A DNA stretch of 37,372 nucleotides from a virus, in the IMG/VR virus record IMGVR_UViG_3300033153_003398, positions 1 to 37,372 of that record; one strand, 5' to 3'. The position numbers and the translations under genes are program-made. A model generated the notes under the pieces. It was not told where the DNA came from and ran no database searches. It saw only the letters and a program-made list of their open reading frames with translations. Positions 15,002-36,584 of this stretch are shown here, piece after piece (position 1 is the first letter of the stretch; each line of letters starts with the position of its first letter).

Positions 15002-15002
15002 A

Positions 15003-15670: not shown

Positions 15671-15754
15671 AGCTTCATTGTAGCATACTCTTGTGTAAAA
15701 GTTGTCCACAAGATGTAAATTTACGTGGACAAGCGGTATGTTACAATACTGACT
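15671..15754. promoter_or_regulatory. Divergent promoter switch with operator
   Basis: Leftward TGC-TACAAT (15677-15685) is 6 nt from the HTH ATG; rightward TGT-TACAAT (15739-15747) is 7 nt from the helicase ATG. Between them TTGTCCAC (15702-15709) and GTGGACAA (15725-15732) form a perfect inverted repeat around the palindrome GTAAATTTAC (15715-15724). TTGTCCACA also resembles a DnaA box. A protein bound here could control both directions. Confidence 0.75.
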
Positions 15755-17272
15755 ATGGAAAACACCTCACACCAAATTAACGAAATATTATTAGATGCAG
15801 GATTAGAAACTATAGAAGAATGTGATCCTTGCCCAGAGCGTACAGCTTACTTAGCACACTTAGAAGACTCTTGGGAAGACGCTGAGAAGTGGGAGAAAAA
15901 ACGAAAGATTCTTGAGACTGAATATATCGCTAACTTCTATAAGTATTTCGCTAGTAATAATCCTCACTTACTATTTGAAACTGGAGAAGATAAATCATAC
16001 TGGAATTACAATGAGAGTGAGGGTGTTTATGAGGGTGTGAATTTCTCAGTAGTTAGAGGTAAGGTGATTATGTTGTTGATGGATGAAGGGTTTACTACTA
16101 GAGCAACTGAAACTACTGCCAAGACTATCTTGAATCGGTATCGGGCAGCTATAGCTGAACGTGGAGTGTCTTTAGATTCATTTGTTAATCTGACAAACAT
16201 CTTACAATTTAAGAATGGTTGGCTAGACTTAAAAACTCTTGAACTAACCCCACATACTCCGGAACGACTGTCTCTATTTAAGATGGCTGTTGATTACGAT
16301 GCTGACATTACTTGTTCTTTATATGATAAAGCTCTTGATTTCGATTATGAAATGCCAGCAGACCAAGTGAGAGTGATAGACCAGTATAGTGGTTACATGC
16401 TAACCAACAGCATTAAGGAGCAGCAGATGTTGATATTTGAAGGTACTACTGGTTGCGGTAAATCTACTATTCCTAGAATCTGGTTAAGGATTTTAGGTAA
16501 GAAAGGAGTGACAGCTAATCTCGAAAGTCTAGGGGGAGCCGAGGTTCGTTTCTTAGGAGAGAAGTTTGCCCACAAAAACTTTTGTTTCTTTGATGAGGCT
16601 AACCCTCAGACTAAGAGTATGAACAACTACTTTACATCAATGGTTGATAAAGATGTTATTGACGTTGAACGTAAAAGTGTTCAACTAAGAGTGGAAGTTA
16701 AAAATACTTTGAAGATTGTATTGGCTCTTAATAAGATGCCCTACCACCAACCAGATGCTCTTGATCGTAGATATCGTCATATTCAATTCACTAAGTCATT
16801 TAGTGATGATGGTGATGCTGATAAAGACCTACTTAATAATATTGTAGAAAATGAGTTGTCTGGAGTTTTAAATAGGATGATTCGTGGTTTACATGATTAC
16901 TGGAAGATGGGTGGTATGACAATGATAGCTGGTGAAGCTGATAGGAAGAGGGAACAGACACTAGCAGCCGATGACATAAGTGCTTTTGTTGAGGAACACT
17001 TCTTACCAGTCCATGACAGCATAGTTAGATACGATTATTCTAATATGAAGACAGCGTTTAGTAATGAGTTTTCTAATAGTTTCAATCGAGGTCTATCTGT
17101 CCGAGCCTTTAATAAGGAGTTGAAGGGTATTAGACTGCCTGAGTTCAAACATATTAGTACTGGTCAATCTAATGGAATTAGGGGTTATACAGGACTTGAA
17201 TTGAAGTCAGGACACACCCTTGATTCTTATGGAATTGCAGTAAATGGAGTGAAGATTGAGGATGATTTCTAA
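15755..17272 (+). CDS. D5-like primase/SF3 helicase
   Basis: 505 residues from the ATG at 15755; a GTG at 15725 lies upstream of the promoter and is rejected. It has a D5-type N-terminal region (about 55-200), then an SF3 ATPase: Walker A GTTGCGKST (230-238), Walker B NFCFFDEANP (275-284), motif C KIVLALNKMP (320-329) and the arginine-finger region DALDRRYRHI. The C-terminal 130 residues are probably a DNA-binding winged helix. It should unwind and perhaps prime phage DNA at the iteron region just downstream. No archaeo-eukaryotic primase catalytic motif is visible, so priming may need the CHC2 protein or host DnaG. Confidence 0.88.
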   Translation: MENTSHQINEILLDAGLETIEECDPCPERTAYLAHLEDSWEDAEKWEKKRKILETEYIANFYKYFASNNPHLLFETGEDKSYWNYNESEGVYEGVNFSVVRGKVIMLLMDEGFTTRATETTAKTILNRYRAAIAERGVSLDSFVNLTNILQFKNGWLDLKTLELTPHTPERLSLFKMAVDYDADITCSLYDKALDFDYEMPADQVRVIDQYSGYMLTNSIKEQQMLIFEGTTGCGKSTIPRIWLRILGKKGVTANLESLGGAEVRFLGEKFAHKNFCFFDEANPQTKSMNNYFTSMVDKDVIDVERKSVQLRVEVKNTLKIVLALNKMPYHQPDALDRRYRHIQFTKSFSDDGDADKDLLNNIVENELSGVLNRMIRGLHDYWKMGGMTMIAGEADRKREQTLAADDISAFVEEHFLPVHDSIVRYDYSNMKTAFSNEFSNSFNRGLSVRAFNKELKGIRLPEFKHISTGQSNGIRGYTGLELKSGHTLDSYGIAVNGVKIEDDF

Positions 17273-17297
17273 AAAAGCTCCAACGGAACAATAAGGG

Positions 17298-17555
17298 TAT
17301 TCTCAGTAACACTTCTTTTTTAAAGTTCTGTTACTGGCTATATACTTATTGTTTTTTTGTGTCTTAATAGGTTTCACGTGGCACACTAAGTAACAGACTT
17401 TGGCGTTTCAGTACCTAAAGAGTAACAGACTTTGAGCAGAAGTGTTACTGAGAATAGTGTTATTTAGCACCGTAGAATCTCTCTCAGTAACACAAGTAAC
17501 AGACTTTATAACTTATTAATAATAATTAATATAATATATATATATATATATCTGG
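17298..17555. other. Putative replication origin: iterons plus AT-rich tract
   Basis: A gene-free stretch after the helicase. AGTAACAGACTTT occurs at 17389-17401, 17421-17433 and 17495-17507, plus an inverted copy with one extra base at 17322-17336. A second word TCTCAGTAACAC occurs at 17301-17312 and 17482-17493, and inverted at 17445-17456. The 18-base TATTCTCAGTAACACTTC (17298-17315) has a perfect inverted copy at 17439-17456. All share AGTAACA. The repeats end at an AT-only stretch (17508-17555, alternating TA), a typical unwinding element. Confidence 0.75.
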
Positions 17556-17643
17556 TACGAATTAAAACCTTCAGGTATGACAAATGTTATAAAGTATTGT
17601 GTAATGTATTCTCTTTCTTTTCTTGTTGGCTAAGTATCTGTGT

Positions 17644-17649
17644 TAAAAT
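17644..17649 (+). promoter_or_regulatory. -10 box TAAAAT
   Basis: TGT-TAAAAT ends 10 nt before the ATG at 17660, matching the extended -10 and short-leader pattern. Confidence 0.45.
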
Positions 17650-17659
17650 CACCACCAAG

Positions 17660-17815
17660 ATGCTCCGAAATATCCTCGAAATGTTGTTCCTGGTTTTACC
17701 TCTAATCTTGTTCTTAATTGTGACTGATAACTTCGAGTGGAAGGATGGTTGGATAAGATATGTGCCAGGAGGGAAAGAGCGGAGAGATGCTTTAAAGAAA
17801 TATGGTACTATTTAG
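17660..17815 (+). CDS. Small membrane protein, 51 aa
   Basis: I place the start at 17660 (MLRNILEMLFLVLPLILFLI) because a TTG at 17597 and the frame before it precede the -10 box. One hydrophobic helix covers residues 5-21, followed by an aromatic/basic cytoplasmic or periplasmic tail (NFEWKDGWIRYVPGGKERR). Function unknown. It is followed after two bases by a zinc-ribbon microprotein. Confidence 0.6.
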   Translation: MLRNILEMLFLVLPLILFLIVTDNFEWKDGWIRYVPGGKERRDALKKYGTI

Positions 17816-17817
17816 TA

Positions 17818-17937
17818 ATGAGAAAATGCTACAACTGTAGAGAACCGGTGAAAGGTAAGAAGCTGCTTTGTAAGAAGTGCGAGGGTAAAAAAATAAAGAA
17901 CACAACTGGAACGTTAATCATTTACCACACAGTTTAA
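17818..17937 (+). CDS. Zinc-ribbon microprotein, 39 aa
   Basis: MRKCYNCREPVKGKKLLCKK... has CYNC (4-7) and LCKKC (18-21), a minimal four-Cys ribbon that is strongly basic, then a Thr-rich tail. The longer frame from 17737 overlaps the membrane protein and is rejected. TGG-TACTAT lies 6 nt before the ATG. It resembles the microproteins at 23196 and 14641 in type, not in sequence. Confidence 0.65.
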   Translation: MRKCYNCREPVKGKKLLCKKCEGKKIKNTTGTLIIYHTV

Positions 17938-17946
17938 TGGTATAAT
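17938..17946 (+). promoter_or_regulatory. Extended -10 TGGTATAAT, leaderless (terminase operon)
   Basis: Consensus extended -10, ending 8 nt before the small-terminase ATG at 17955. No -35 is evident. It should start the packaging operon with a zero to two base leader. Confidence 0.8.
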
Positions 17947-17954
17947 ATATCTAT

Positions 17955-18338
17955 ATGGCACATCCAGGTGGAAGACCAACTAAATACACTAAAGAACTTT
18001 CTGAAACTATTTGCGAAAAATTAGCGAATGGTAACTCTTTAGCTAGTATCTGTCGTTTAGATGAAATGCCAGAAAGAGCAACAGTTCACCGATGGTTAGT
18101 AACTGATAAAGAGTTTTGTGACAGATACAAGGTGGCTAGAGAAATACAAGCAGAGGTTTATGCTGATGAAATGGAGAACATTGCGATTGAAGAAGAAGAT
18201 GTGCAAAGAGCTAGACTTAGGATAGATACAAGGAAATGGATAGCCTCTAAGTTAAAACCAAAGAAGTATGGTGATAAGATTGATGTAACAACTGATGGTA
18301 AAGCATTACCAGCTCCAATTATTCCTTTAGATGTTTAG
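17955..18338 (+). CDS. terS: Terminase small subunit
   Basis: 127 residues beginning MAHPGGRPTKYTKELSETIC, the usual opening of Sf6-type small terminases. A helix-turn-helix covers about 22-50 (ANGNSLASICRLDEMP and ATVHRWL), followed by long charged helices (60-110) for ring assembly and a short tail. It should recognise the packaging site and feed DNA to the large subunit, whose gene overlaps by eight bases. It is first in a leaderless-promoter operon. Confidence 0.85.
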   Translation: MAHPGGRPTKYTKELSETICEKLANGNSLASICRLDEMPERATVHRWLVTDKEFCDRYKVAREIQAEVYADEMENIAIEEEDVQRARLRIDTRKWIASKLKPKKYGDKIDVTTDGKALPAPIIPLDV

Positions 18339-19491
18339 TGAGACTTCAGCTACAAAAAAAATAGTAGCAATGAGTAAAAAGATTAGAGCTATCCAAGGAG
18401 GAACATCAGCCTCTAAGACTGTTTCTATACTTCTGTATCTAATAGCAAGATGTCAGTCTGATAAGGAATCAACATTAACTTCAGTGGTAGCTGAGTCATT
18501 GCCTCATCTAAAACGTGGAGCGTTACGTGATTTCAAGACAATAATGCAGACTCATAATTACTGGAATGAAGACAACTGGAGTGCTACAGATTTTATCTAT
18601 ACCTTCGAGACTGGTAGTCAGATGGAGTTCTTTGGTGTAGATAGCCCTGACAAGCTCCGTGGTGGACGTAGAGACCGTTTATTCATCAATGAGGCTAACA
18701 ATGTACCTTTAGCAGCATTTGACCAGTTAGAGGTAAGAACTAAAGAATTTGTTTTTCTTGACTGGAATCCATCACATGAGTTTTGGTTTTACACAGATGT
18801 ATTAAATCATCGGACTGATTTACAACATATCACTCTTACTTACTTAGATAATGAAGCTCTTAGTAAAGAAATCATCAGCTCTATAGAAGCTAGAAAGAGT
18901 AACAAGATGTGGTGGAAAGTATATGGTGAAGGTAAGTTAGGTGAGATTGAGTCACGTATCTTTACACGGTGGAATATTATTGACTCTATACCAGAAGAAG
19001 CTAGGTTAGAAGTAAGAGGAATGGACTTTGGTTATAGTAATGACCCTTCAACCATTATTGATGTCTATAAGTATAATGGTGGTTTTGTTTTAGATGAACA
19101 GCTATATCGTAAAGGTTTACACAATAAACAACTGGCTGATATTTTAAATAACTTGGAACAATGTACTACTACAGTAGTAGCTGATTCAGCCGAACCTAAG
19201 TCTATTGATGAGATTAGGAGTTATGGGGTACCAATATTCCCAGCTAAGAAAGGACAAGACAGTATTAATCAAGGTATTCAGCTAATGCAAGGTTTAACCA
19301 TCTCAGTTACTAAACGCTCTAAGAATCTTTTGAAGGAATATCGTGGTTATTTATGGATGGAAGATAAAGACGGAAAGATTATAAATAAGCCAACTGGAGC
19401 AGATCATCAACTTGATGCAGCAAGGTATGCTTTCTCTTTACTATTCCCCCATGAAGAGGCAACCGAAGAAAGTAGTCTATCTATCTATTAG
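18331..19491 (+). CDS. terL: Terminase large subunit
   Basis: 386 residues, a complete but compact two-domain motor. ATPase: Walker A GGTSASKT (23-30), Walker B RLFINEAN (116-123, catalytic E121), coupling motif around 142-148 (FLDWNPS). RNase H-like nuclease: D232 (GMDFGYSNDPS), D285 (VADSAEP) and D362 with the C-terminal ADHQLDAARYA. It belongs to the Terminase_3-like group (PBSX type). It drives DNA into the prohead and cuts genome ends; with the circularly permuted map, headful packaging is likely. Confidence 0.93.
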   Translation: MFSETSATKKIVAMSKKIRAIQGGTSASKTVSILLYLIARCQSDKESTLTSVVAESLPHLKRGALRDFKTIMQTHNYWNEDNWSATDFIYTFETGSQMEFFGVDSPDKLRGGRRDRLFINEANNVPLAAFDQLEVRTKEFVFLDWNPSHEFWFYTDVLNHRTDLQHITLTYLDNEALSKEIISSIEARKSNKMWWKVYGEGKLGEIESRIFTRWNIIDSIPEEARLEVRGMDFGYSNDPSTIIDVYKYNGGFVLDEQLYRKGLHNKQLADILNNLEQCTTTVVADSAEPKSIDEIRSYGVPIFPAKKGQDSINQGIQLMQGLTISVTKRSKNLLKEYRGYLWMEDKDGKIINKPTGADHQLDAARYAFSLLFPHEEATEESSLSIY

Positions 19492-19494
19492 TCG

Positions 19495-19503
19495 TGGTAT
19501 AAT
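19495..19503 (+). promoter_or_regulatory. Extended -10 TGGTATAAT, leaderless (portal)
   Basis: Four bases after the terminase stop; the box ends 9 nt before the portal ATG at 19513. Confidence 0.78.
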
Positions 19504-19512
19504 TATCGCAAT

Positions 19513-21333
19513 ATGGCACAACATTTATCCCAAGAGGAAGCACAACGGCAATTATTAGGATTAGTAACTGATGAAGTAAATCGCTACGACAAAGCTCAGT
19601 ATTGGATTACAGACAAGATTGCTCTCAACATGAGAGAGATGATTAAAGAGAACCGTAAGAACTACTGGGGTATTTATGATGACCCTGTAGATGGTACGAC
19701 TGGTAAAGAAAAACTATGGGTACCATTAACTAGACTCCTAGTTGATGCAGTCCGTAAGAATGTAAACCTTGACCCTAAAGATGTCCGCTTTCGTTCTACA
19801 GATCCTGATAGTTCACACTTCACTCACTTAGTTAGAGGCTACATAAAGAAATGGTTATCTAAAACATATTTTAACCATACTCTTAATCAAGCTGGCTTCA
19901 CTACTTCCGTAGATGGAACTGTAGTATGGAAAACTTACTTGTTAGATAAGAAGATTGTCCGGAAAGATGTTGACCTACTAAACGTATATATCGACCCCAG
20001 TGCTGATAGCATTCAGGATACTTACCGCTTCACTGAGCGAGTACTAATGACTAAGACTGAAGTAGAAAAGATGGACTGGTTAAATAAAGATAGGTTTGTT
20101 GCTGAAGAAGATGTTGAAAAGGTAGACGGTGAAGGAGCAACTAAGTCTGGAGAGTTCGGCGATGTGTATGAATCATGGGGATACTTCCCTAAGCATTTAG
20201 TGTTAGCAGCAATGGGTGAAAACTACCAAGAAGAAGATGTAGACAAGGAAATGGAATCACAGGTAGTTATCTCCGGACTAAATACTGGAGCAATCACTTT
20301 CCACTTTGCTGAAGAGAATAAAGAAAAGGACAACCAAGGGAACATCATTAAACCTTACGAAGAAGGTTGGTACTTAAAAGTTCCTAATCGTTGGTATGGA
20401 GTTGGTATCGCTGAAACAGTTATGCCTCTACAGTACTGGATTAACACAGTGGTTAATCTACGTATCAAGAAGAACACAATGGCTCAACTGGGATTACTAA
20501 AGATCCGTCGTGGTTCTAAGGTGACACAACAGATGCTTCAGAACCTAGTTGGTAAAGGAGTGATTGAATTAGCTGACCCAGAGAATGACTTACAACAGTT
20601 ACGAATTGATGAATCAGGACAGTCTAGTTATGAAGACGAGAAAGTAGCAAGAGGATGGGCGCAAGATATAACTTCAGTGTTTGACGCTTCACTTGGAGAC
20701 TTACCAGCTTCAACTTCTGCTACTGGTGCAGTTATTCAGGACCGACAACAACGCTCAGCCTTCCAGTTAGTTACTGAATCAATGGAGCATTTAGTCCAAC
20801 GTTGGATGGATAGACACGTTTTACCTAATACACCAGTAATGATTAAGGATGAGAAGTATATTACTTTCTTTAAAGACTTTGATGATATTAAGAAAATACG
20901 TGAAGCTATCGTAGCTAACCTGGCAATGGAATCTCTAGCTAATCTTTCTGGTGGAGTACCAACTGAACTTGAAGTAGAGGAAGCAATGAGAAAGGCTGAA
21001 CGTAAGTTGGAATCTAAGGGAGACTTCTTTATTGAGCAGGTAGATAAGTTGTTAGTAGACATGATGGAGACAGAAGTGTTCATGACTAACACTGAGGTAG
21101 ATGTAGCGGTAACAGTCAGAAACTTACTAGAGCTAAGGAATGGCCTATCACCAGAAGCAGCTAACGAGATGACAGCTGAAGCTCTAGACTTGCTCGGGTT
21201 ACAAGTACCTAACTCACTCAAAGAACCAGTACAAGAAGAACAACTAGAGGCTGGAGCAGCACCAAGCCTTCCAGCTTTTAATGAGCAAGCTATCTCTACT
21301 GAAGCTTTAGCTCTAGGTAGTGAACAAAGATAA
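19513..21333 (+). CDS. Portal protein
   Basis: 606 residues following the large terminase, the standard place for the portal. The N-terminal half is mixed and the region 270-345 (NRWYGVGIAETVMPLQYWIN, then LRIKKNTMAQLGLLKIRRGS) is typical of the portal stem and wing. Then a helical crown region (380-560) and an acidic Gln/Glu/Ala-rich tail. Its size lies between SPP1-like and P22-like portals. It forms the ring through which DNA enters and leaves. The stop overlaps the next start by one base. Confidence 0.85.
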   Translation: MAQHLSQEEAQRQLLGLVTDEVNRYDKAQYWITDKIALNMREMIKENRKNYWGIYDDPVDGTTGKEKLWVPLTRLLVDAVRKNVNLDPKDVRFRSTDPDSSHFTHLVRGYIKKWLSKTYFNHTLNQAGFTTSVDGTVVWKTYLLDKKIVRKDVDLLNVYIDPSADSIQDTYRFTERVLMTKTEVEKMDWLNKDRFVAEEDVEKVDGEGATKSGEFGDVYESWGYFPKHLVLAAMGENYQEEDVDKEMESQVVISGLNTGAITFHFAEENKEKDNQGNIIKPYEEGWYLKVPNRWYGVGIAETVMPLQYWINTVVNLRIKKNTMAQLGLLKIRRGSKVTQQMLQNLVGKGVIELADPENDLQQLRIDESGQSSYEDEKVARGWAQDITSVFDASLGDLPASTSATGAVIQDRQQRSAFQLVTESMEHLVQRWMDRHVLPNTPVMIKDEKYITFFKDFDDIKKIREAIVANLAMESLANLSGGVPTELEVEEAMRKAERKLESKGDFFIEQVDKLLVDMMETEVFMTNTEVDVAVTVRNLLELRNGLSPEAANEMTAEALDLLGLQVPNSLKEPVQEEQLEAGAAPSLPAFNEQAISTEALALGSEQR

Positions 21334-21632
21334 TGAAAAAAGAATTTGACGAAGACACCACTAAGCAACTAGGTCGAGCAGCTGAGATTGAAGCTATGCT
21401 CGGCTCAGCTGGTTGGTCTTATGCTGAAGCTGATTTAAAGGACTACATAGCCAAACTAAAGGACATTAGTACTATAGATTTAGCCAGTGATACTGTTATT
21501 CAACAGCTAAGGGACCAAGTAAACACTGCTGCTGTCCTTGAAGATTGGCTGGAGTCCTTAAAGAGTCAGGTAAATAATGCTATAATTATCACAGAACATA
21601 AAGGAACAGTTAAAACAGTAGAAAGACGATAG
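21333..21632 (+). CDS. Hypothetical helical protein between portal and scaffold, 99 aa
   Basis: 99 mostly helical, acidic residues (TTKQLGRAAEIEAMLGSAGW... ) containing an Ile/Leu-rich helical pair. Its place after the portal suggests a head accessory or early scaffold factor, but no motif supports a name. Coupled to the portal by a one-base overlap (TAATG). Confidence 0.65.
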   Translation: MKKEFDEDTTKQLGRAAEIEAMLGSAGWSYAEADLKDYIAKLKDISTIDLASDTVIQQLRDQVNTAAVLEDWLESLKSQVNNAIIITEHKGTVKTVERR

Positions 21633-21666
21633 CCCTGCAACACCTTAGCAGGGAGCTTGTCTCCCT
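21633..21666 (+). other. Two mutually exclusive hairpins before the scaffold gene
   Basis: CCCTGC (21633-21638) pairs with GCAGGG (21648-21653), and AGGGAG (21650-21655) pairs with CTCCCT (21661-21666). They share AGGG, so only one can form. No T run follows. They may tune readthrough, RNA stability or translation at the head-gene boundary. Confidence 0.6.
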
Positions 21667-21687
21667 ATTATTAACTATCCAAACACT

Positions 21688-22242
21688 ATGGAAACAGAAA
21701 ACCAAACCGAAGAAACCCAAGTTGATGATTCTCAATTGAAATCAGCAGCCGGTAATGAGGCGGAATCTGTTGCAACTGATAGCTTGACCTTGAGTGAGAT
21801 AAACGACCTCACAGGGAAAACCTATAAAGACAAAGAATCTGCCCTTAAGAGTATTAAGGACATGAGTTCACAGGCTGGAAAAGCCGCTGACTTAGAAGGC
21901 AAGCTTAAGAAGGTTGAGACACCTAATAAGCAACTCACTGCCGTACAAGAACAGCTAAGCCAATTACAGAATGATGCCTTTTTCAAAGACAATGAAGATT
22001 TCAATACTAATCGTGAGCTAATCGAAAAGATTGCTAAAGCAGATGGTATCTCTAATCAAGAAGTTGTCGAAACTGAACTGTATAAATCAGTCTCAGGAAC
22101 AGTAGCAAGTCAGAGTACAAGGACTGTAGCAAGTACTAATGGAAGGGTGGCACAATCCGCAGCGTCAAAGGAGTTTGACCCTAAAGGAAAGTCACCTGAT
22201 GAGTTAGCAGCTTTTGTTACAGGAACTTATTTTAAAACATAA
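21688..22242 (+). CDS. Capsid scaffolding protein
   Basis: 184 residues, acidic Glu/Thr/Gln-rich N-terminus (1-45), a coiled-coil-like central helix (60-110), then a Ser/Thr-rich linker and a basic C-terminal helix (KGKSPDELAAFVTGTYF). This composition and the place directly before the capsid gene (three bases) are typical of scaffolds, which guide shell assembly and then leave. No cleavage motif is seen. Confidence 0.75.
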   Translation: METENQTEETQVDDSQLKSAAGNEAESVATDSLTLSEINDLTGKTYKDKESALKSIKDMSSQAGKAADLEGKLKKVETPNKQLTAVQEQLSQLQNDAFFKDNEDFNTNRELIEKIAKADGISNQEVVETELYKSVSGTVASQSTRTVASTNGRVAQSAASKEFDPKGKSPDELAAFVTGTYFKT

Positions 22243-22245
22243 AAT

Positions 22246-23130
22246 ATGTCAACTCTCGTAACCTATAACGATACTTCACGTCCAGAGGACTTGGTATCAG
22301 TTGTAACCAACGTGTCACCAACACAGACTCCTCTTTTGAGTCGTCTATCACGTGGCGCACAAGCAAAAGGAACTCTACATGAGTACCTTTTAGACACCTT
22401 CGCTAGTTCAGCAGACAACGCTGCAATTGAAGGCGCAGCATTTAGTTCTGACGTTCTAGTTGCTCCAACACGTGGAAGCAACATCACTCAAATCTTTCGA
22501 AACGATATTGAAGTATCTGGTACACAGCAAATGGTATCTGAACCAGAAGCACTGAACTATCAAACTCGAAAGACTTTGAAGGAACATGCAAAGGATATTG
22601 AGAAAGCTATGATGGCTGGATCACAGGCTTCAGGTGAAACTGATGGCGCACGTCGAATGACTGGTGTAATCAACGCTCTTACTACAAACGCAACTACTCA
22701 GGCTTCAGCTTCAACGCTGACAGAAGCTGGTTACAACGACCTTTTGGAACTTGTACACGGTTCAACTGATGAGTTCCCAAACATGGTATTCGTTGGTTCT
22801 AAACTAAAGCGAACTATCTCAGGATTCACTGGTGGAAACACTAAGAACCTTGACGGTACTACAGGTAAAGTCAGCAATTTCGTTGCTATCTACGAAGGTG
22901 ACTTCGGAGTACAGGAGATTATGATTCACCGAGATGTACCGAACGCAGCAGCTGGACGGTCAATCGTTGGTATCAACTCTGACTACCACCGTATCTCATA
23001 CATGCGACCTACAAACATTGTAGAAATCGCAAAGGTAGGAGACTCTGATCGAAAGATGTTGCTTACAGAGGTAACTCTAGAGCACACAGGTGAGAAAACA
23101 GGTTTCGTCGCTAACCGATATGCTAGCTAG
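22246..23130 (+). CDS. Major capsid protein, SU10-like fold family
   Basis: 294 residues, HK97-like. The N-terminal block TSRPEDLVSVVTNVSPTQTPLLSRL and the later YQTRKTLKEHAKDIEKAMM, GARRMTGVINAL and DYHRISYMRPTNIVEIAKVGDS match the SU10/DUF5309 capsid family pattern. There is no N-terminal delta domain, so the separate scaffold does that job. Codon choice here (many CGA, AAC, TTC) looks more biased than in flanking genes, as for a highly expressed protein. It is followed by a strong terminator. Confidence 0.88.
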   Translation: MSTLVTYNDTSRPEDLVSVVTNVSPTQTPLLSRLSRGAQAKGTLHEYLLDTFASSADNAAIEGAAFSSDVLVAPTRGSNITQIFRNDIEVSGTQQMVSEPEALNYQTRKTLKEHAKDIEKAMMAGSQASGETDGARRMTGVINALTTNATTQASASTLTEAGYNDLLELVHGSTDEFPNMVFVGSKLKRTISGFTGGNTKNLDGTTGKVSNFVAIYEGDFGVQEIMIHRDVPNAAAGRSIVGINSDYHRISYMRPTNIVEIAKVGDSDRKMLLTEVTLEHTGEKTGFVANRYAS

Positions 23131-23156
23131 TTAATAGTTACATATTAAGCACTAAG

Positions 23157-23176
23157 CACCCGAAAGGGTGTTTTTT
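23157..23176 (+). terminator. Rho-independent terminator after the capsid gene
   Basis: CACCC-GAAA-GGGTG followed by TTTTTT: a short stem with a stable GNRA loop. It closes the head operon. Confidence 0.92.
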
Positions 23177-23180
23177 GTTG

Positions 23181-23189
23181 TGGTACAAT
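23181..23189 (+). promoter_or_regulatory. Extended -10 TGGTACAAT, leaderless
   Basis: Only four bases after the terminator T run; the box ends 6 nt before the ATG at 23196. It restarts transcription directly behind the terminator. Confidence 0.75.
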
Positions 23190-23195
23190 AAAACC

Positions 23196-23321
23196 ATGTT
23201 AAACATTTTCAAAAAGCTGAGGAAGAAGAAGTGTGACAGATGTAAGAAAGCTCCAGTAAACGAAAAGCTATACCCCACGTCTAAGAATGAGTGGATTTGT
23301 GACGACTGTAAAAACAACTAG
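23196..23321 (+). CDS. Zinc-ribbon microprotein, 41 aa
   Basis: MLNIFKKLRKKKCDRCKKAP... with C13, C16, C35 and C38 as CDRC and ICDDC, a textbook minimal zinc ribbon, behind a basic amphipathic N-terminal helix. It is the first gene after the capsid terminator and has its own promoter, so it is probably made in quantity late in infection. Possible roles: virion component, nucleic-acid binding, or host-directed adaptor. No name is justified. Confidence 0.7.
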   Translation: MLNIFKKLRKKKCDRCKKAPVNEKLYPTSKNEWICDDCKNN

Positions 23322-23323
23322 TT

Positions 23324-23695: not shown

Positions 23696-23814
23696 CAACA
23701 GAAAAACTTAAACGTAGATTTATAACTGCTGACTATAAAGGGAAGGAAGACCAAGAGAAATCTTTTAAAGAGTTTATGAGGAGAGAATGGTGGAAGTTTT
23801 GGAAATGGATTTAA
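23692..23814 (+). CDS. Trp-rich cationic microprotein, 40 aa
   Basis: MTTEKLKRRFITADYKGKED, then a helix ending FMRREWWKFWKWI at the stop. The last ten residues hold four Trp among Lys/Arg, the composition of membrane-interfacial and Trp-rich cationic antimicrobial peptides. It starts inside the TGA of the preceding gene (ATGA). It may attach its complex to membranes or disturb the host envelope. An alternative is a packing anchor on the virion. Confidence 0.6.
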   Translation: MTTEKLKRRFITADYKGKEDQEKSFKEFMRREWWKFWKWI

Positions 23815-23823
23815 TATTTATAT

Positions 23824-26756: not shown

Positions 26757-26765
26757 TGGTATAAT
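26757..26765 (+). promoter_or_regulatory. Extended -10 TGGTATAAT, leaderless
   Basis: Begins at the base after the methyltransferase stop and ends 8 nt before the ATG at 26774. Confidence 0.8.
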
Positions 26766-26773
26766 TACAGCTT

Positions 26774-27118
26774 ATGGATAAGATTGAACCTGTAGCACAG
26801 CCTGAACCGATGGCTGATATACCACAGTCAGCAGAACAAACTGGTATTGGTATGGATATTCACGCTATGAAGCTGGAAGGTTTTTTCGGTATTCAAAATC
26901 CTAGTAGTGAAGAACAAAAATCATTAAGTGAAATGACTAGATTACTTAATGGTAATAATATGGATGTAGTAGATTTTCTTTGGGAAGTTAAGAATGTAGA
27001 GAACAGGATTGGTACGCCACCATTAGGAATGTCACGACTCCAGCATACTTATAATTTTATTAAGATTAACTCTCAGATATTAGATCTAGAGAAAGAAAGA
27101 AACTTATATGTCCAATAA
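26774..27118 (+). CDS. Hypothetical virion-locus protein, 114 aa
   Basis: 114 residues: a Pro/Gln/Glu-rich disordered N-terminus (1-28) and a helical remainder with LSEMTRLLNGNNMDVVDFLW and RLQHTYNFIKINSQILDLEKE. It heads a leaderless-promoter operon and overlaps the next gene by 11 bases. A head- or neck-associated role is inferred from position only. Confidence 0.65.
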   Translation: MDKIEPVAQPEPMADIPQSAEQTGIGMDIHAMKLEGFFGIQNPSSEEQKSLSEMTRLLNGNNMDVVDFLWEVKNVENRIGTPPLGMSRLQHTYNFIKINSQILDLEKERNLYVQ

Positions 27119-28496: not shown

Positions 28497-28500
28497 ATCA

Positions 28501-28619
28501 TGTTATAATAGTGGTAACGAAGGCGGTAAAAATCCCAACCTTTATCAGCGTACAGAGTTTTATTGTGCGAATGATTAAGGTGGTCATTCTCACACTATAG
28601 CTCTGTACTAATCATAGCT
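28501..28619 (+). promoter_or_regulatory. Promoter and structured 5' leader of the neck/tail operon
   Basis: TGTTATAAT (28501-28509) is an extended -10, but here the ATG is 110 nt away. The leader can form a long hairpin: GTACAGAG (28550-28557) with CTCTGTAC (28601-28608), and inside it TGTG-x-GAATGA (28564-28574) with TCATTC-x-CACA (28584-28594), loop TTAAGGTGG. It is the only late promoter found with a long, folded leader. Confidence 0.72.
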
Positions 28620-29357: not shown

Positions 29358-29358
29358 C

Positions 29359-29784
29359 ATGGCAACATTTTACTTAAAAGGATTACAAGATGCACTGGAA
29401 GCAGTAACAGGTGTAGCAGCTGCTCCCACCGGGACACTGAAGATGGCTTTTATGGCTACAGCTTACACTCCATCATCAACCACAGAGTCGTACTGGAGTG
29501 ATATATCATCTGATATAGCCTCTGGTACAACAGTCCAGACTCTAGCTGGTACTGCCGTTAATATTGATACTGGTAATAACCGTGTAGAGATTGATTCAGA
29601 CGACATCACTGAAACACCAGTGACAGCTTCAACTGATAAATATGTTATATGGATGGACACTGGTACCGACTCTACTTCACCACTGATAGCTTGTATGGAC
29701 ATAGCAACAGAGTTAAATCCAGTCGGAGGTGACTTAACCATAGTAGTAAACGCAGAAGGACACGCAGCAGTTAACGCATCATAA
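29359..29784 (+). CDS. Beta-rich virion protein, 141 aa
   Basis: 141 residues: MATFYLKGLQDALEAVTGV, then Thr/Ser/Asp-rich strands and a C-terminal GGDLTIVVNAEGHAAVN. This type of small all-beta protein is frequent among phage tail or head-fibre genes. It starts one base after the neck-like gene. No Shine-Dalgarno. Confidence 0.7.
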   Translation: MATFYLKGLQDALEAVTGVAAAPTGTLKMAFMATAYTPSSTTESYWSDISSDIASGTTVQTLAGTAVNIDTGNNRVEIDSDDITETPVTASTDKYVIWMDTGTDSTSPLIACMDIATELNPVGGDLTIVVNAEGHAAVNAS

Positions 29785-29787
29785 TAT

Positions 29788-30681
29788 ATGGCAATAGCAG
29801 TAGCTTCATCATCAATAATAGACGGAAATGACCAGACAACCTTAACGGTTACAGCTCCAACTGGAATTACTACTGGTGATTTGTTGGTTATTATTGCTGC
29901 GTCAGGTAATGCTGTCGGTGTAACTAGCTCTGGATTTACTGAATCATTTAGTTACGATAATGAATATCCATCTGGTCGTAGAGGTACACATACTGTTTTG
30001 TATAAATATGCTGTATCGGCTGATGAATCAGAAGCTGATTATGATGTTGTTTCTGACACAGCTTTTTACTTAGGAGCAGTAGTGATGCTTAGAGTTACTG
30101 GTGGAGTAACAGCTGGTGATCCTGTTTTTCAGCACCATGATAGTAATGGAGTAGTGTCAACTTCTGACGGATTGTCTGTAACAGAAGCTGTGTCAGTTCT
30201 CAGACCAACTTCACAGTTGAATATGCTTATAGCAACAGCTTGGTCAAGTGGTAACTTCTCTGGTGAATTAGATAATAATAACTATACAATCACATCTAGT
30301 GATGCAAATCCAACATGGACAGAGTTAGGTGATGATTCAACAGTATTCCAATATACTAATGCAATTAGTTGGTACGGTAGACTGACGGTAGCTTATGCAG
30401 CTAGTACAGACACCTCAGAAGTAACTGAGTATAGTTTTGATTATTTTGAGTCATCCTTAGACGACACTGCGGGTGCAACATGGAGTTATTTAACTCTTCA
30501 TACACCACAAAATGAGTCTGATTCTAACACCTTACTGGAGACAGACACTACTTTATTTGCAGCTACTGGTGTAACTAATACTAGTGCCTCAAATGTTTTA
30601 TTAGAAGTTGACCCTACTTTTCCAGTACAATCAGGAGAAGGGGTAGTACCTACTAGTTGGACTAATACAACTAAATCATAA
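29788..30681 (+). CDS. Beta-sandwich virion protein, 297 aa
   Basis: 297 residues with a lectin-like or jelly-roll composition (Ser/Thr/Val/Asp), beginning MAIAVASSSIIDGNDQTTLT. A Ser/Thr/Asn linker and a C-terminal TNTSASNVLLEVDP repeat-like segment follow. The opening resembles that of the protein at 2651, suggesting related folds at two places in the tail. Could bind carbohydrate; no catalytic site seen. Confidence 0.68.
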   Translation: MAIAVASSSIIDGNDQTTLTVTAPTGITTGDLLVIIAASGNAVGVTSSGFTESFSYDNEYPSGRRGTHTVLYKYAVSADESEADYDVVSDTAFYLGAVVMLRVTGGVTAGDPVFQHHDSNGVVSTSDGLSVTEAVSVLRPTSQLNMLIATAWSSGNFSGELDNNNYTITSSDANPTWTELGDDSTVFQYTNAISWYGRLTVAYAASTDTSEVTEYSFDYFESSLDDTAGATWSYLTLHTPQNESDSNTLLETDTTLFAATGVTNTSASNVLLEVDPTFPVQSGEGVVPTSWTNTTKS

Positions 30682-30682
30682 T

Positions 30683-30886
30683 ATGGAACAAGCTAAATTT
30701 TTAAGGAGGGTAAACATAGATGATTATTTTGGTACTAATCAAGTCAGTATCACTATTGGTGAAGGTGGTGGCACAGATACCTATGATGTAGAGAATATCC
30801 CGTTAGAGACAGTAGCTGGAACCGCTTATGAATTTGAGATAGAAGGAAAAAGAATAGTATTTATTGGTTACGAAACAAGAAATTAA
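30683..30886 (+). CDS. Small beta protein, 67 aa
   Basis: 67 residues with beta strands around a Gly-rich turn (SITIGEGGGTDTYDVENI) and a C-terminal strand RIVFIGYE. Position between two virion proteins suggests a small tail component. It starts one base after the previous stop. Function not known. Confidence 0.65.
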   Translation: MEQAKFLRRVNIDDYFGTNQVSITIGEGGGTDTYDVENIPLETVAGTAYEFEIEGKRIVFIGYETRN

Positions 30887-30887
30887 C

Positions 30888-32597
30888 ATGGCAATCATCC
30901 CTGAAAACAAACAATGGACACAGACTAATGATGGTGACTCATTTGGTGTTATTAACTCATCTTGGGGTATTGATTTAGAAGAAAACAACGGGAGTGTTGG
31001 TGTGTCTAACCCTCTAAAGAATGTAATTGATGAGACAGATTTCACTGATTTGAATAGACCAGTAGCTCAGTATGTTGAGTTTATGAGTAAGCTGTTTGCT
31101 GTATCTAGTGAGATATTCAAAGCTTCAACTTTATCAACTAGCGACATTACTGATACCTCAAAATGGACACAAGATGGAGCTGTTACATCACCAAGTCCAA
31201 CCGCTACTCAGACTGATGCAGTTGTTTTTGACAATCTTATACTGGTAAGTGACGGTAATGATATATGGTCTAATGATGGAGGGGTAGACTGGACTTCATG
31301 GTGGAAAGGAACACTAAGTCAAGCTAGTCTCTCTACTAGTGAGAAGATGGTATTGAAAATTGGAGCTGACGGTAATTTATATATTGTAGACGCTGGTAAT
31401 CTTGTTTATCGAGTAGATAAGGACGGTTCAACAGTAACTAAGACTGGAGAAGGAACATTAGACTTTTCTGCTACTGACTTAACCATAATAAATGGTGTAA
31501 CTACATCTACAAGATTGTTTTATGGTACAGAGGATAATGCTGGTGACAACTGCGCCATTATAGAGTGGGATATGGGTCCACAGTCTATCTCTGCCAATAA
31601 AGTACATCAAATGGGTACGAAAAGAGTCTTAGTGATAGCTGAATGGAATGATTTACCAATAGCTATACTGTCTGATGGTTCTATTAAGTACCATAACGGT
31701 TCTGCTTTTGTGGATTGGGAAGGAGCAAAGTTACCTGACACCAAACATCCTTATGCAGATGACGTTATTCATAAGAATGGCTGGGATATTATAGATGGTC
31801 TACCACACTTCTTAATAAATCCATCAGTTGACCTAGGAGCCTTAAATGAAGTGGAAGATAGTAGCAACTACTGGAACTATCCAGCTGGTGTCTACTGTTT
31901 AGACCCTAAAAAGGGCTTATATTGTCGTTATCCTTTGTCAGATGGTACAAATCAACACTTTATGGTGTCTTCTGTAGGAGCATTGAAGGCTTTAACCCAT
32001 AAAAATACTAAGTTCTTCGCTAGTTATGATGTGTGGACAGATGCAACCGATACTAATAACTATGTAATATCAGCAGCAGAAGACTCAGCTAATGAAATAG
32101 CTTCTACTGCTCATCTCTTATTACAACCAATGGAATCAGTGTCAGAAGTAATAAAGAAACTAACTCTCATCCATAAGAGATTAGGTATAGGTGACGAAAT
32201 TAACGTCTTTTATCGTAGATATGATAACGATTCAATAAAGTTATCTGGTAACTGGTTGGATTCTACGACATTTAACACAACCGACGATACAACTGGTTTA
32301 GAGAATGGTTGGTATGGCTTCAATAAATTAGGAGCGCACTTCTTATCTAAGGTAACAGCTATTTCAGGAGGTAACACTAAATCCATTACTTTTGCAGATG
32401 AAGCGACTATCACAGCTAATGATACAGCGGTAATAGAGTTCGTGAACTTTAAATCAATGGGAAGTGTTAAAGGTGGAGTGGAAATGTCAGAGTTAACTAT
32501 CCCTAACTCTGTTAAGAGTAGACAAGTGTGGATATGGATTGAATTAAAACAAGCGGCTGGTAACAACATTCAGCTTGACTATTTATTAACTGAATAA
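30888..32597 (+). CDS. Large beta-propeller-like tail protein (nozzle or hub candidate), 569 aa
   Basis: I choose the ATG at 30888 (MAIIPENKQWTQTNDGDSFG), one base after the previous gene; the TTG at 30864 overlaps that gene. Residues 90-400 show repeated strand units with blade-like phrases (DNLILVSDGNDIWSNDGGVD, GADGNLYIVDAGNLVYRVDK, LPIAILSDGSIKYHNGSAF), as in beta-propellers of podovirus nozzle proteins. The C-terminal 150 residues form another beta domain. It is probably the lower tail tube or nozzle. Confidence 0.68.
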   Translation: MAIIPENKQWTQTNDGDSFGVINSSWGIDLEENNGSVGVSNPLKNVIDETDFTDLNRPVAQYVEFMSKLFAVSSEIFKASTLSTSDITDTSKWTQDGAVTSPSPTATQTDAVVFDNLILVSDGNDIWSNDGGVDWTSWWKGTLSQASLSTSEKMVLKIGADGNLYIVDAGNLVYRVDKDGSTVTKTGEGTLDFSATDLTIINGVTTSTRLFYGTEDNAGDNCAIIEWDMGPQSISANKVHQMGTKRVLVIAEWNDLPIAILSDGSIKYHNGSAFVDWEGAKLPDTKHPYADDVIHKNGWDIIDGLPHFLINPSVDLGALNEVEDSSNYWNYPAGVYCLDPKKGLYCRYPLSDGTNQHFMVSSVGALKALTHKNTKFFASYDVWTDATDTNNYVISAAEDSANEIASTAHLLLQPMESVSEVIKKLTLIHKRLGIGDEINVFYRRYDNDSIKLSGNWLDSTTFNTTDDTTGLENGWYGFNKLGAHFLSKVTAISGGNTKSITFADEATITANDTAVIEFVNFKSMGSVKGGVEMSELTIPNSVKSRQVWIWIELKQAAGNNIQLDYLLTE

Positions 32598-32606
32598 TGT
32601 TATAAT
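32598..32606 (+). promoter_or_regulatory. Extended -10 TGTTATAAT
   Basis: Overlaps the previous stop region; the box ends 11 nt before the ATG at 32618, so the leader would be about four bases. Confidence 0.72.
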
Positions 32607-32617
32607 TAACAAATAAT

Positions 32618-34255
32618 ATGCCGCCAACAAAAATACAAACAAGCGTAGGACTAGAAACACCACAAGAGACATTAGATCGCTCTAAGACTCTTCTTGCCAC
32701 TTCACAAACACCGTTCAAGGTAGATGTACCAACAGCGATCCAATCACCAACGATTAACACAAACATCACTAAAGACGATGTTTTTGAACAGCGTAATCAG
32801 TTACAAGCTGACCAGCAATTTGATACTGATTTGACCGCTCTAGACACTAGAATTGGCTCTACAGACACACCTCTTGGTGGTTCTGATGAGTTTATCAATA
32901 CCTTACTTTTAAACCAGCCTACAGCCACTCAGACAGCCTTAGACGTACAACGTATTGGACAGACAGAACAGACTAGAGGTTTCGCTGGTGAATTAGATGT
33001 AACAGGTCAAGAAGCTAGGAGAGAATTTGCCTTACCTGAATTAGAGTCTAATTTTGCTGAAACTAATGAACGTATTGCTGCTAGGACTGTTAAATTACGT
33101 GAGGACATTCGCAACTTTGAAGTAAACGCTGAACAGCGTGGAGTATCTCGACAGTTCGTACAAGGAGCTAAACAAAAGATACAAGCTGACGCTGCCACAG
33201 AGTTAGCTGATTTATCTATCATAGCAGCTGCCCAACAAGGTAATCTACAACTAGCTCAAGACAGTGTAGACCGAGTTATAAATGAGAAATTAAGAACCTT
33301 TGAGTTTGAAAACGCTGCTATTGAACAAGAAATAGCAAGATTAGAGTCTACTAACACTAGAGAAGATAAAGTGCGTAGTGAACAACTACAGATTGCTCTT
33401 AACGAAAGACAAAGAAGAGAAGACCAAGTAATCTCCGATGAGAAGGACAAGCTAAACTTCCTAAGTGAAGCAGCAGCTAATGGCGCAGATACCGGAACAC
33501 TAGACGCTATCCGACAAGCAACTACAGTAGGTGAAGCAGCATTACTAGCTGGACCGTTTATTGGTCGGTTAGATAGAGCTAAGACTGCTGCTAGTATTAG
33601 AGCTTCTAACGCTGGAGCAGCTCTTAATGAACAGAAGTTACTTGATATACAAGCTAAACAAGCTCAATTAGACGCAGCTGTCGCTAGTGGTGAACTGATT
33701 CTGTCTGATGACCAAGCTGATAGAGCGGCTAAAATCTCTAAAGAATTTGAGGGTGAAGCAGGAGAGTTTAAGAAAGTGGTTGCATCATATAACAGAATAC
33801 TGTCAGCAGCAGAAGATGCTTCAGCAGCTGGTGATGTTGCTGTAGTCTTTAACTTTATGAAGATGCTAGATCCTGGTTCTGTAGTTCGTGAAAGTGAATT
33901 TGCTTTAGCTGCTTCAACTGGTTCTCTTAAAGAGGCAATGCAAAACAAGTTCGGTAGGGTGGTGACTGGTGAAATATTAGAGTTCACTAGAGACGACTTT
34001 GTGAACACAGCAACTAATCAATATGCAGTAGCCCTAGACCAACAGATTGAACTTGAAGAAAGGTTTAGAACACAAGCTGTTGACCTGTTTGGTCTACCAA
34101 TAGAAGCAGCTGATTTGATAGTGCAAGATATACGAGCTGTTGGTGCAGTTAGCGATGCTACCTTTGATGTTCAATTAAATAAAGCTAGTCCAGACCAGTT
34201 ACTAATTCTTCAACAACAAGGGTTATTACCAGATTCAACACCTAATCAAATATAA
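32618..34255 (+). CDS. Internal virion / DNA-ejection-like protein, 545 aa
   Basis: 545 residues, Gln/Ala/Glu-rich and helical. After a low-complexity N-terminus (1-60) come long coiled-coil segments (100-300). A conserved-looking block AAGDVAVVFNFMKMLDPGSV with VRESEFALAA near residue 400-430 is common to phage internal or ejection proteins. No transglycosylase site is seen. Such proteins are packaged and pass into the cell with or before the DNA. It is followed after one base by a second candidate of the same kind. Confidence 0.72.
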   Translation: MPPTKIQTSVGLETPQETLDRSKTLLATSQTPFKVDVPTAIQSPTINTNITKDDVFEQRNQLQADQQFDTDLTALDTRIGSTDTPLGGSDEFINTLLLNQPTATQTALDVQRIGQTEQTRGFAGELDVTGQEARREFALPELESNFAETNERIAARTVKLREDIRNFEVNAEQRGVSRQFVQGAKQKIQADAATELADLSIIAAAQQGNLQLAQDSVDRVINEKLRTFEFENAAIEQEIARLESTNTREDKVRSEQLQIALNERQRREDQVISDEKDKLNFLSEAAANGADTGTLDAIRQATTVGEAALLAGPFIGRLDRAKTAASIRASNAGAALNEQKLLDIQAKQAQLDAAVASGELILSDDQADRAAKISKEFEGEAGEFKKVVASYNRILSAAEDASAAGDVAVVFNFMKMLDPGSVVRESEFALAASTGSLKEAMQNKFGRVVTGEILEFTRDDFVNTATNQYAVALDQQIELEERFRTQAVDLFGLPIEAADLIVQDIRAVGAVSDATFDVQLNKASPDQLLILQQQGLLPDSTPNQI

Positions 34256-34256
34256 T

Positions 34257-35714
34257 ATGGCTTTAACTGACAGACAATTCAGATTACTACAAGACCAATT
34301 GCAAAGGAAAAAGGAAACTTTAGGTGAAACTGAATATAATTCTTTTCTTAATAGAGTTGCTGCTACCTCTGAAGCTACAGAAGTAGATGTTGATTCAACT
34401 GCTACTTTTCCTGCTTCACCAACTGATACTCCAATACAAGCAGGCTTAAAAGCGGCTGGTAATGTTCCATCATCAGCGTTTGGTTTAGGAAAGAGTCTTT
34501 TCCAAGCAGTGACACACCCTGTCGAAACAACAAAGGGCTTAGCCAGTGCTATTACTGGTGGAGGTAGAGCTATACAAGAACAAGTTAGAAAGACAGCTCC
34601 AGGAATCTTTGGAGAAGCTCTACCTGAAAGTGAGAGAGCTGATGCAACCTTCAAAGCATTGAAGGAGTCTTTTGTCGAAAGATATGGATCTTTAGACGCA
34701 GCACAAAAAACAGCTACCGAAGACCCTGTTGGATTCGGAGCAGATGTAGCTGCTATATTCTCTGGTGCAGGAATAACTAAGGTTGTGGAGAAAGTGTCAG
34801 AGCTAAACAAAGCAGCTAAAGCTAGTATTGCAACTAAAGTTACAGGTAAATTCGATGATGTGGCTATTGGTCAAATGCAAAAAGCTATAAATCTTAACCC
34901 CTCAGATATACGAAAGATTAAACAACCTAATATAGCAAGTAAAGACCCCGCTGAATGGTTATTAGAGCGTGGTATTAGAGGTTCTAGAGAGTCTATTGCT
35001 AGTCAGTTAGATGACATTGGTACAGCTTCTAAGGCTCAAGTTGATAATGGATTAGCTCAATTAACTACAAGAGTGAAGATAGATAATGCTTTACCAGCTC
35101 AAAAAACACTCGATGTTTTGATTAAAGACCTTGATGGTGTGATTGGTATGGAAACGACATTAGATCGACTCACTAAGATGAGAGGACAGACGAGTTTCTC
35201 TATAGCTGAATTGAATGAAATTAAGAGACTTGGTGATGACCTGTCAGCTATCTATAAAACAACTGGAATAGTAAAAGACAGTGCAAAAGCACAGGGTCTT
35301 GCTAATGTCCGGTCAGAATTAAAAACACTGATTGAAAATGAAGCATCCAAACAAGGGTTTGATGCTGTAAAAGCTCTTAATAAAGAGACACAGGTTTCAT
35401 TTGAAATCAGTAAAGCTCTAAAGAAAAGACTGGATGTTGAAAGTAAATTACCAGAACTTGGTTTACGTGACGGTGTGTTAGCGGTAGGAGGGTTTGCAAC
35501 AGGTGGACCGTTAGCTGCCGCTGGAATTGTTATATCTAAAAAGATTCTAGAGAGTGCTCAGTTTAGAACATTCTTAGCTAATAAGCTGAAAGGTTCTAAC
35601 ACTGCACAAAAAGTAGAACTACAAAAAGCCCTAGAAACTAGAAATTATACAGTTATATTTCAGTATCTTGCTCCAATTGTTAATGAGTATGAGGTTAGTC
35701 AATCCCAAGAATAA
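34257..35714 (+). CDS. Second internal virion / ejection-like protein, 485 aa
   Basis: 485 residues, Ala/Lys/Leu-rich. An N-terminal helix (MALTDRQFRLLQDQLQRKKE), then AAGNVPSSAFGLGKSLFQAV and THPVETTKGLASAITGG, a phrase common in phage virion proteins that cross membranes; a helical middle; and a hydrophobic Gly/Ala segment at about 405-425 (VLAVGGFATGGPLAAAGIVI) that may insert into membrane. A partner of the upstream protein in a DNA-ejection channel is likely. Confidence 0.7.
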   Translation: MALTDRQFRLLQDQLQRKKETLGETEYNSFLNRVAATSEATEVDVDSTATFPASPTDTPIQAGLKAAGNVPSSAFGLGKSLFQAVTHPVETTKGLASAITGGGRAIQEQVRKTAPGIFGEALPESERADATFKALKESFVERYGSLDAAQKTATEDPVGFGADVAAIFSGAGITKVVEKVSELNKAAKASIATKVTGKFDDVAIGQMQKAINLNPSDIRKIKQPNIASKDPAEWLLERGIRGSRESIASQLDDIGTASKAQVDNGLAQLTTRVKIDNALPAQKTLDVLIKDLDGVIGMETTLDRLTKMRGQTSFSIAELNEIKRLGDDLSAIYKTTGIVKDSAKAQGLANVRSELKTLIENEASKQGFDAVKALNKETQVSFEISKALKKRLDVESKLPELGLRDGVLAVGGFATGGPLAAAGIVISKKILESAQFRTFLANKLKGSNTAQKVELQKALETRNYTVIFQYLAPIVNEYEVSQSQE

Positions 35715-35763
35715 TCCTACCTAGGATAAACAAGACAACTAATCCAAAGATGAATTCATACAT
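35695..35763 (-). CDS. Possible antisense 22-aa membrane peptide
   Basis: On the minus strand, MYEFIFGLVVLFILGRIILG then ID and stop: a near-perfect single membrane helix. It lies across the end of the ejection-like gene and the 98-base gap behind it. There is no convincing promoter or ribosome-binding site, and it is the only leftward candidate in the late region, so it may be chance. The rest of the gap (35715-35812) holds only a short TCCTA/TAGGA dyad. Confidence 0.25.
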   Translation of the reverse strand: MYEFIFGLVVLFILGRIILGID

Positions 35764-35812
35764 ATAAAAACCATACGCCCAGAACACATATTAGTCAATA
35801 ACAGTTATCAAC

Positions 35813-36217
35813 ATGGCAGCAAAAAAGAAAAAGAAGCAGAGTACATTAGAGCGATTCACTGGAAGTAAGTCTCTTATTGGGAGAGGAGCTAAGAAGATAA
35901 CTAAAGCGGTGGGGGCTAAGAATTTAGCTAAGTTCGCTGGTGAGACTCTAGCTAGACGTAAGAATAAGAGTATTAAACGTACTGTTACTGGTAAACAAGC
36001 CCGTAAGTCTGGAGTGGCTTTAGCTGCTAATATAGCCTCTCTAGCTTCTGGTGGAGCCGCTGCTGGTATTATTCGGGGAATCCGAGTAGCTCGGAAAGCT
36101 AAATCAGCTAAGTCTTTAGTAAAGAAAGGTTTTAAGGTTAAAGGTCAGAAAAAGCGAGTAAAGGTCAGGCATTTTAATATAGGTAAGAAAAAAGGTGTCA
36201 CTTACGGGAACTATTAA
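35813..36217 (+). CDS. Highly basic virion-locus protein, 134 aa
   Basis: 134 residues with a poly-Lys start (MAAKKKKKQS), many Lys/Arg throughout, and one hydrophobic Ala/Gly-rich segment (SGVALAANIASLASGGAAAG, about 63-82). The ends are strongly cationic. It may bind DNA inside the head, or use the central helix to cross a membrane during ejection; its place after two ejection-like proteins suits both. Compare the protamine-like 49-aa peptide at 3959. Confidence 0.68.
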   Translation: MAAKKKKKQSTLERFTGSKSLIGRGAKKITKAVGAKNLAKFAGETLARRKNKSIKRTVTGKQARKSGVALAANIASLASGGAAAGIIRGIRVARKAKSAKSLVKKGFKVKGQKKRVKVRHFNIGKKKGVTYGNY

Positions 36218-36219
36218 CG

Positions 36220-36228
36220 TGGTATAAT
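36220..36228 (+). promoter_or_regulatory. Extended -10 TGGTATAAT, leaderless (tail-fibre operon)
   Basis: Starts two bases after the previous stop and ends 8 nt before the ATG at 36237. Confidence 0.8.
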
Positions 36229-36236
36229 TACCTGCA

Positions 36237-36584
36237 ATGGCTACCTTTACTACACTTAGTAAGAACAAGATTAGCTGGGTTGCTCCAGCTCCAGTAGCTA
36301 TTGTAGGTGAGGCTTATGAGTTGTTGATCGCTGATACTTATAAGCTAGATATTGGAGATGGTTTTTACTTAACTATCAAGCCAGCCGCTACTTCAATTCA
36401 GTATACTAATGTAGGTAAAACTAAGAACACCTGGCCAGCTCCAGCCTCAGTCAAGACTGATTACTTTATAAATATTGGTGATGACTTCAACCTTCTGATA
36501 GATAACAGCAACAAACTCATTATTAACCCTCGACAAGCAGAAGTCCCTTGGACTACGATAAGTAGAAAGAAAATTAAATATTAA
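36237..36584 (+). CDS. Small virion protein with internal duplication, 115 aa
   Basis: 115 residues made of about two and a half similar units: KNKISWVAPAPV...YELLIADTYKLDIGDG, then KTKNTWPAPASV...FNLLIDNSNKLIIN, then TTISRKKIKY. Each is beta-rich with a W-x-APA start. It precedes the tail fibre by two bases under a leaderless promoter, so it may be a fibre-attachment or baseplate part. Family unknown. Confidence 0.68.
   Translation: MATFTTLSKNKISWVAPAPVAIVGEAYELLIADTYKLDIGDGFYLTIKPAATSIQYTNVGKTKNTWPAPASVKTDYFINIGDDFNLLIDNSNKLIINPRQAEVPWTTISRKKIKY

Follow-up and report, generated by a model that had tools for sequence, protein, structure and literature searches.

Extended -10 boxes recur a few bases before start codons in the genome of an uncultivated phage, and they are probably promoters giving leaderless messages, in a host most likely belonging to the Patescibacteria. 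The DNA analysed, hereafter the window, is a virus record of 37,372 nt with a 114-nt terminal repeat (1–114 = 37259–37372). As a conclusion drawn from sequence, with predicted start sites, leaderless transcription is well supported, because the spacing is strict, TGN precedes the hexamer, the boxes are conserved at orthologous starts, a terminator abuts a promoter and the same geometry is seen in Patescibacteria chromosomes. The window encodes an Sf6-type small terminase (TerS), a large terminase (TerL) and an SU10-type major capsid protein (MCP). Its portal has a weak SU10-like match, and none in a collection of isolated phages. The best matches of the MCP and the primase, at about 38%, are in uncultivated Manatee Spring phages.

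An extended -10 box (TGNTATAAT or TGNTACAAT) lies 6–11 nt 5′ of the ATG in 8 of the 58 genes of the window, against an expectation of 0.04. The motif TGNTAYAAT, searched 5–11 nt before starts, likewise gave 8 of 58, while shuffles of the upstream regions had a mean of 0.038 and a maximum of 2 in 3000 trials. TGNTATAAT itself is about fourfold over-represented, with 11 occurrences compared to 2.7 ± 1.7 expected. Chance or AT-richness as the source of the boxes is ruled out by these shuffles together with the scrambled-motif controls described below. The initial annotation had listed nine such sites and proposed a motif search with distance-to-start statistics; all nine are present with the positions and spacings it gave, and the search yielded the excess just described. 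TGN stands directly 5′ of the hexamer in 8 of the nine, and all nine genes begin with ATG. The absence of evident -35 boxes was also borne out, since TTGACA matched in at least 4 of 6 positions at 16–18 nt in 1 of 8 boxes, compared to 13% of random positions; hidden -35 elements were looked for in the window and not found. In a scan of the 58 genes no boxed gene had a Shine-Dalgarno site. Shine-Dalgarno-like sites were seen at four genes (8100, 6652, ~6344 and 6228), three of them strong and all in the early minus-strand region, in agreement with the statement that most genes lack them.

On the plus strand, TGTTACAAT with a 7-nt discriminator (15739–15754, spacing d = 7) abuts ATG 15755 of the primase/helicase gene; its best -35 match is TTTACG, 4 of 6. 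In this phage the DnaG-type zinc finger (CHC2) is a separate small protein (15003–15503, minus strand) and not part of the D5-type helicase at 15755. TGGTATAAT precedes the small terminase gene (17938–17954, d = 8, ATG 17955), the portal gene (19495–19512, d = 9, ATG 19513) and the genes starting at 26774 (26757–26773, d = 8) and 36237 (36220–36236, d = 8). After the capsid gene, a terminator-like hairpin of 8 pairs with a T-rich tail (23154–23173) lies directly 5′ of TGGTACAAT (23181–23195, d = 6), which leads to a 41-codon ORF at ATG 23196. The longest spacing, d = 11, is that of TGTTATAAT (32598–32617) before ATG 32618. On the minus strand, TGCTACAAT (15671–15685, d = 6) precedes ATG 15670 of a 60-aa HTH-like protein, and a TATAAT without TGN (11574–11585, d = 6) precedes ATG 11573 of a VRR-NUC-like gene. 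Between the two divergent promoters lie nested palindromes, TTGTCCAC / GTAAATTTAC / GTGGACAA (15702–15732), a candidate operator. The divergent pair (15671–15754), the palindromes and the leftward HTH-like gene may together form an early/late switch.

At sigma-70 promoters transcription starts about 6–9 nt beyond the hexamer. Spacings of 6–9 nt therefore predict leaders of 0–3 nt, and d = 11 at 32618 predicts about 4–5 nt, so that the zero to four bases first proposed fit the shorter spacings and may be slightly exceeded at 32618. We asked whether a pyrimidine at -1 could prove that transcription begins at the A of the ATG. In the window this is uninformative, the bias being about the same in boxed and unboxed genes; it is informative in Patescibacteria and, among the matches listed, in the set of IMG/VR sequences with the box 6–9 nt before ATG. 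In that set the near absence of Shine-Dalgarno sites is partly forced by the geometry. The totals for all of IMG/VR, with the box 6–9 or 26–29 nt before the start, are both lower bounds and do not bear comparison with each other.

In the mechanism we propose, the host housekeeping RNA polymerase, of the sigma-70 type, would read the boxes; no phage polymerase or sigma factor was seen among the window genes scanned. Transcription would begin on, or a few bases from, the A of the start codon, and the leaderless messages would be bound by 70S ribosomes through their 5′ AUG. Seven of about 28 plus-strand genes, about a quarter, are led by boxes, and five of the seven boxes lie in stop-to-start gaps of 17–21 nt, in which the promoter is nearly the whole intergenic region. 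Each could serve as a re-entry point for transcription. Gaps of -13 to +5 nt are found at about 15 plus-strand genes, where translation is presumably coupled; genes downstream of boxed ones would be translated by start/stop coupling without Shine-Dalgarno sites. For the capsid operon and gene 28620, a box of this kind would be combined with a hairpin leader of about 100 nt. To call leaderless transcription a general design of the late genome, as was done initially, is therefore an overstatement.

Six further occurrences of TGNTATAAT in the window are followed by a leader or stand before no obvious gene. Boxes at 6374–6382 (minus strand), 6808–6816 (minus strand), 21578 and 28501 are additions to the earlier list, and the box at 15002–15010 (minus strand) overlaps the end of a coding sequence. 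The operon that runs from gene 21688 to the MCP follows TGCTATAAT and a structured leader of about 95 nt (21578–21687, fold z = -5.65), and gene 28620 follows TGTTATAAT and one of about 105 nt (28501–28619, z = -5.03); neither is leaderless. The long hairpins of both leaders (21593–21687 and 28510–28619) end about 10–14 nt 5′ of the AUG. The box upstream of 21688 is in the same place in two related contigs, L094 and L095, each with a leader hairpin; their copy also lies within conserved coding sequence. On the minus strand, TGGTATAAT (6382–6374) and a leader (6229–6382) precede small Shine-Dalgarno-led genes (AAAGGAG, AAAGGAGG). A 20-nt promoter-leader segment, TGGTATAATACAGGTGGAAA, occurs there and again, identically, at the second box (6808–6816), which leads through a leader of about 150 nt (6653–6816) to the Shine-Dalgarno-led gene 6652. 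Between this second copy and gene 6652, about 120 nt of GC-rich sequence could encode an RNA. One promoter type thus appears to serve 5′ ends of at least three kinds: the box-led starts, the hairpin leaders of about 100 nt and the leaders of Shine-Dalgarno genes.

Conservation was studied in 90 contigs related to the window, which was itself excluded, through TerL or MCP. In these, 20 of 103 occurrences of TGNTATAAT lie 6–9 nt before an ATG-initiated ORF of at least 60 aa, and the distance distribution peaks there. Of four scrambled or reversed motifs, with 47–63 matches each, three gave one case and one gave none at 5–11 nt. The portal box is kept in L094 (60% identity, d = 9), L095 (d = 6) and L008/L009 (41%, d = 8), and in a DNA alignment of the portal starts it is the sole invariant block besides short isolated columns, the flanks having diverged. 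The box of gene 26774 is kept in L094 (15289) and L095 (8850), both at d = 6, in otherwise diverged DNA, and that of TerS in L095 (position 102, d = 8). Alignments of the portal, TerS and 26774 proteins with their orthologs begin at these ATGs or close to them. The initial annotation would have been contradicted by loss of the spacing in homologous phages; box and spacing instead recur at the orthologous starts of these three genes. More distant portal homologs (L067, L016, L031 and others) have no box, which marks it as a feature of a subgroup, and most TerL relatives have no boxes. In some relatives (L073) a full TTGACA lies exactly 17 nt upstream of the box, which argues that the boxes are promoters.

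The geometry was then counted in bacterial chromosomes, with the reversed motif as control. Among 145 genomes from the same phylum as the Saccharibacteria genome G006, here Patescibacteria, the box occurred 6–9 nt before ATG 2095 times compared to 352 in the control, about sixfold; at 20–23 nt the counts were 748 and 403. The corresponding figures for the 6–9-nt pattern were 651 and 172 in Elusimicrobiota (about 3.8-fold), 548 and 338 in Bacteroidota, and 136 and 86 in Pseudomonadota. In the Patescibacteria chromosomes sampled, the distance peaks at d = 6 and the -1 base is a pyrimidine at 80% of boxed starts, compared to 46% of unboxed starts; many boxes follow terminator-like poly-T stretches. 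One Patescibacteria genome, G122 (L141–L145), has 153 cases of TGNTATAAT-N6-9-ATG in 0.7 Mb, far above the others sampled, and about one quarter of its sampled genes are boxed. The comparison with candidate host genomes proposed at the outset did find the signature in Patescibacteria. As a strong hint to host identity, which is how it was first presented, it gains from the enrichment in Patescibacteria and loses from that in Elusimicrobiota and from the Sphingopyxis prophage described next.

A search of 379 Patescibacteria genomes with an MCP profile gave one strong match, on contig 1 of G125. This contig carries, in the order of the window, the portal (34%), the MCP (47%), a glycosyltransferase (42% over 759 aa) and a tail gene (43%), and beyond the phage genes a tyrosine recombinase followed by gltX, def, fmt, mltG and queA. 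It is a prophage in a chromosome, which was assigned to the Patescibacteria by its grouping with G006. A LAGLIDADG-type homing-endonuclease-like ORF, recognised by eye, lies between its scaffold-like gene and the MCP gene (L410:10976–11512). Boxes are absent from its late region, which, like d = 11 at 32618, counts against the leaderless reading. A second relative, in Sphingopyxis (G003 contig 18, L156–L159), has an integrase, adjoins tRNA-Thr and encodes a TerL 59% identical to that of the window. Its GC content is 52% within a flank of 64%. Boxes stand at d = 6–8 before its TerS, its protease and two further genes. Misbinning of this contig was considered and rejected, the prophage lying within the chromosome. 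The first matches among binned TerL relatives came from bins as different as DPANN, Elusimicrobia, Sphingopyxis and Patescibacteria, some probably misbinned, and were set aside as a guide to the host. Since the Sphingopyxis prophage has the same layout and the G125 prophage has no late boxes, the signature alone is not decisive for the host. The related prophage joined to chromosome genes in G125 makes a Patescibacterium the probable, and the most likely, host.

Two other readings of the boxes themselves were weighed. The AT-rich stretch before the ATG might be a signal for translation, an unstructured A/U-rich initiation region on longer messages that merely resembles a -10 box. Few Shine-Dalgarno sites and many starts in AT-rich DNA are what this would predict for the phage, yet the exact TGN-TATAAT is enriched far past composition, scrambled TGN motifs of equal composition show no spacing, and the unboxed coupled genes do without the AT-rich box; with the TTGACA at 17 nt in some relatives and the terminator preceding the box at 23181, this makes a translation signal highly improbable. 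If instead the boxes were ordinary promoters with leaders of 5–20 nt, translation would begin at a later in-frame start or by short-leader initiation. The spacing of 11 nt at 32618 and the uncertainty of certain start codons would accord with this, but it too is very improbable, given that alignments with the orthologs of the portal, TerS and gene 26774 begin at or close to these ATGs and that the distance from box to ATG varies little, in hosts as in relatives.

The signature might follow a lineage of phages, as a mobile late-gene layout carried across unrelated hosts, and say little about any one of them. The Sphingopyxis prophage is a case of this kind, its host flank and genome being nearly without boxes, and more than 120 IMG/VR stretches carry the strict motif. 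Against it stand the same geometry in chromosomes of Patescibacteria and Elusimicrobiota and the lack of the layout in most TerL relatives, so that we regard this reading as rather unlikely. That the host is an Elusimicrobiota bacterium and not a Patescibacterium is suggested by the enrichment there and by a 63% TerL relative binned in an Elusimicrobia genome. Over the stretch examined, however, TerL alone among the genes tested is shared by that binned contig. The Patescibacteria prophage has several genes in common with the window, in the same order, and its contig continues into chromosome genes; an Elusimicrobiota host is therefore improbable.

The lambda cI message is leaderless, and there, as proposed here, the host polymerase makes a phage mRNA that starts at AUG; cI is a single repressor gene, in contrast to the series of structural genes in the window. 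The boxes resemble the TGN-TATAAT of extended -10 sigma-70 promoters without a -35. In most cases a 5′ leader lies downstream of such promoters; here the boxes are placed at the start codon. Leaderless bacterial genes whose start codons are preceded by "TA-like" signals were described by Zheng et al. (2011; PMC3160421), where leaderless initiation in lambda and an extended TG in low-GC genomes such as Lactococcus are also reported. Those genes, like the present ones, have a -10 about 12 nt upstream, counted from the first T, and no Shine-Dalgarno site; the part of that paper drawn on here concerns bacterial chromosomes, in contrast to the repeated use in a phage late operon and the occurrence in Patescibacteria seen here. 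In Deinococcus-Thermus, Zhong et al. (2025; PMC12340547) described a "-10 region adjacent to ORF" that lies a few bases before the ORF, gives leaderless mRNA and was reported to work in the absence of a -35. That phylum is a different one, TGN is nearly fixed here, and "phage" and "extended" are absent from the main text of that paper. Phage transcripts have been called "often leaderless" (PMC5312081). The literature searched, which came from a limited set of journals, contained nothing relevant for Patescibacteria, CPR or Saccharibacteria as regards leaderless genes, and no description of leaderless promoters used serially in a late operon. Leaderless genes adjacent to a -10 are thus known, while serial use in a late operon and the link to Patescibacteria appear undescribed in that literature.

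We tentatively suggest that Patescibacteria widely use extended -10 elements that abut the AUG, and that their phages combine serial leaderless re-entry with hairpin leaders, the latter kept for the capsid and tail genes; such a scheme, with two classes of late mRNA, would not have been described before. If this is true, leaderless initiation would be commonplace in a bacterial group that is among the largest and the least cultured, and in the phages of that group. Gene-start calling would be affected, since the boxes would give start codons directly, and metagenomes could be searched for leaderless-using phages by a simple sequence test. It would also bear on expression design for Patescibacteria and on ideas of what their reduced ribosomes prefer.
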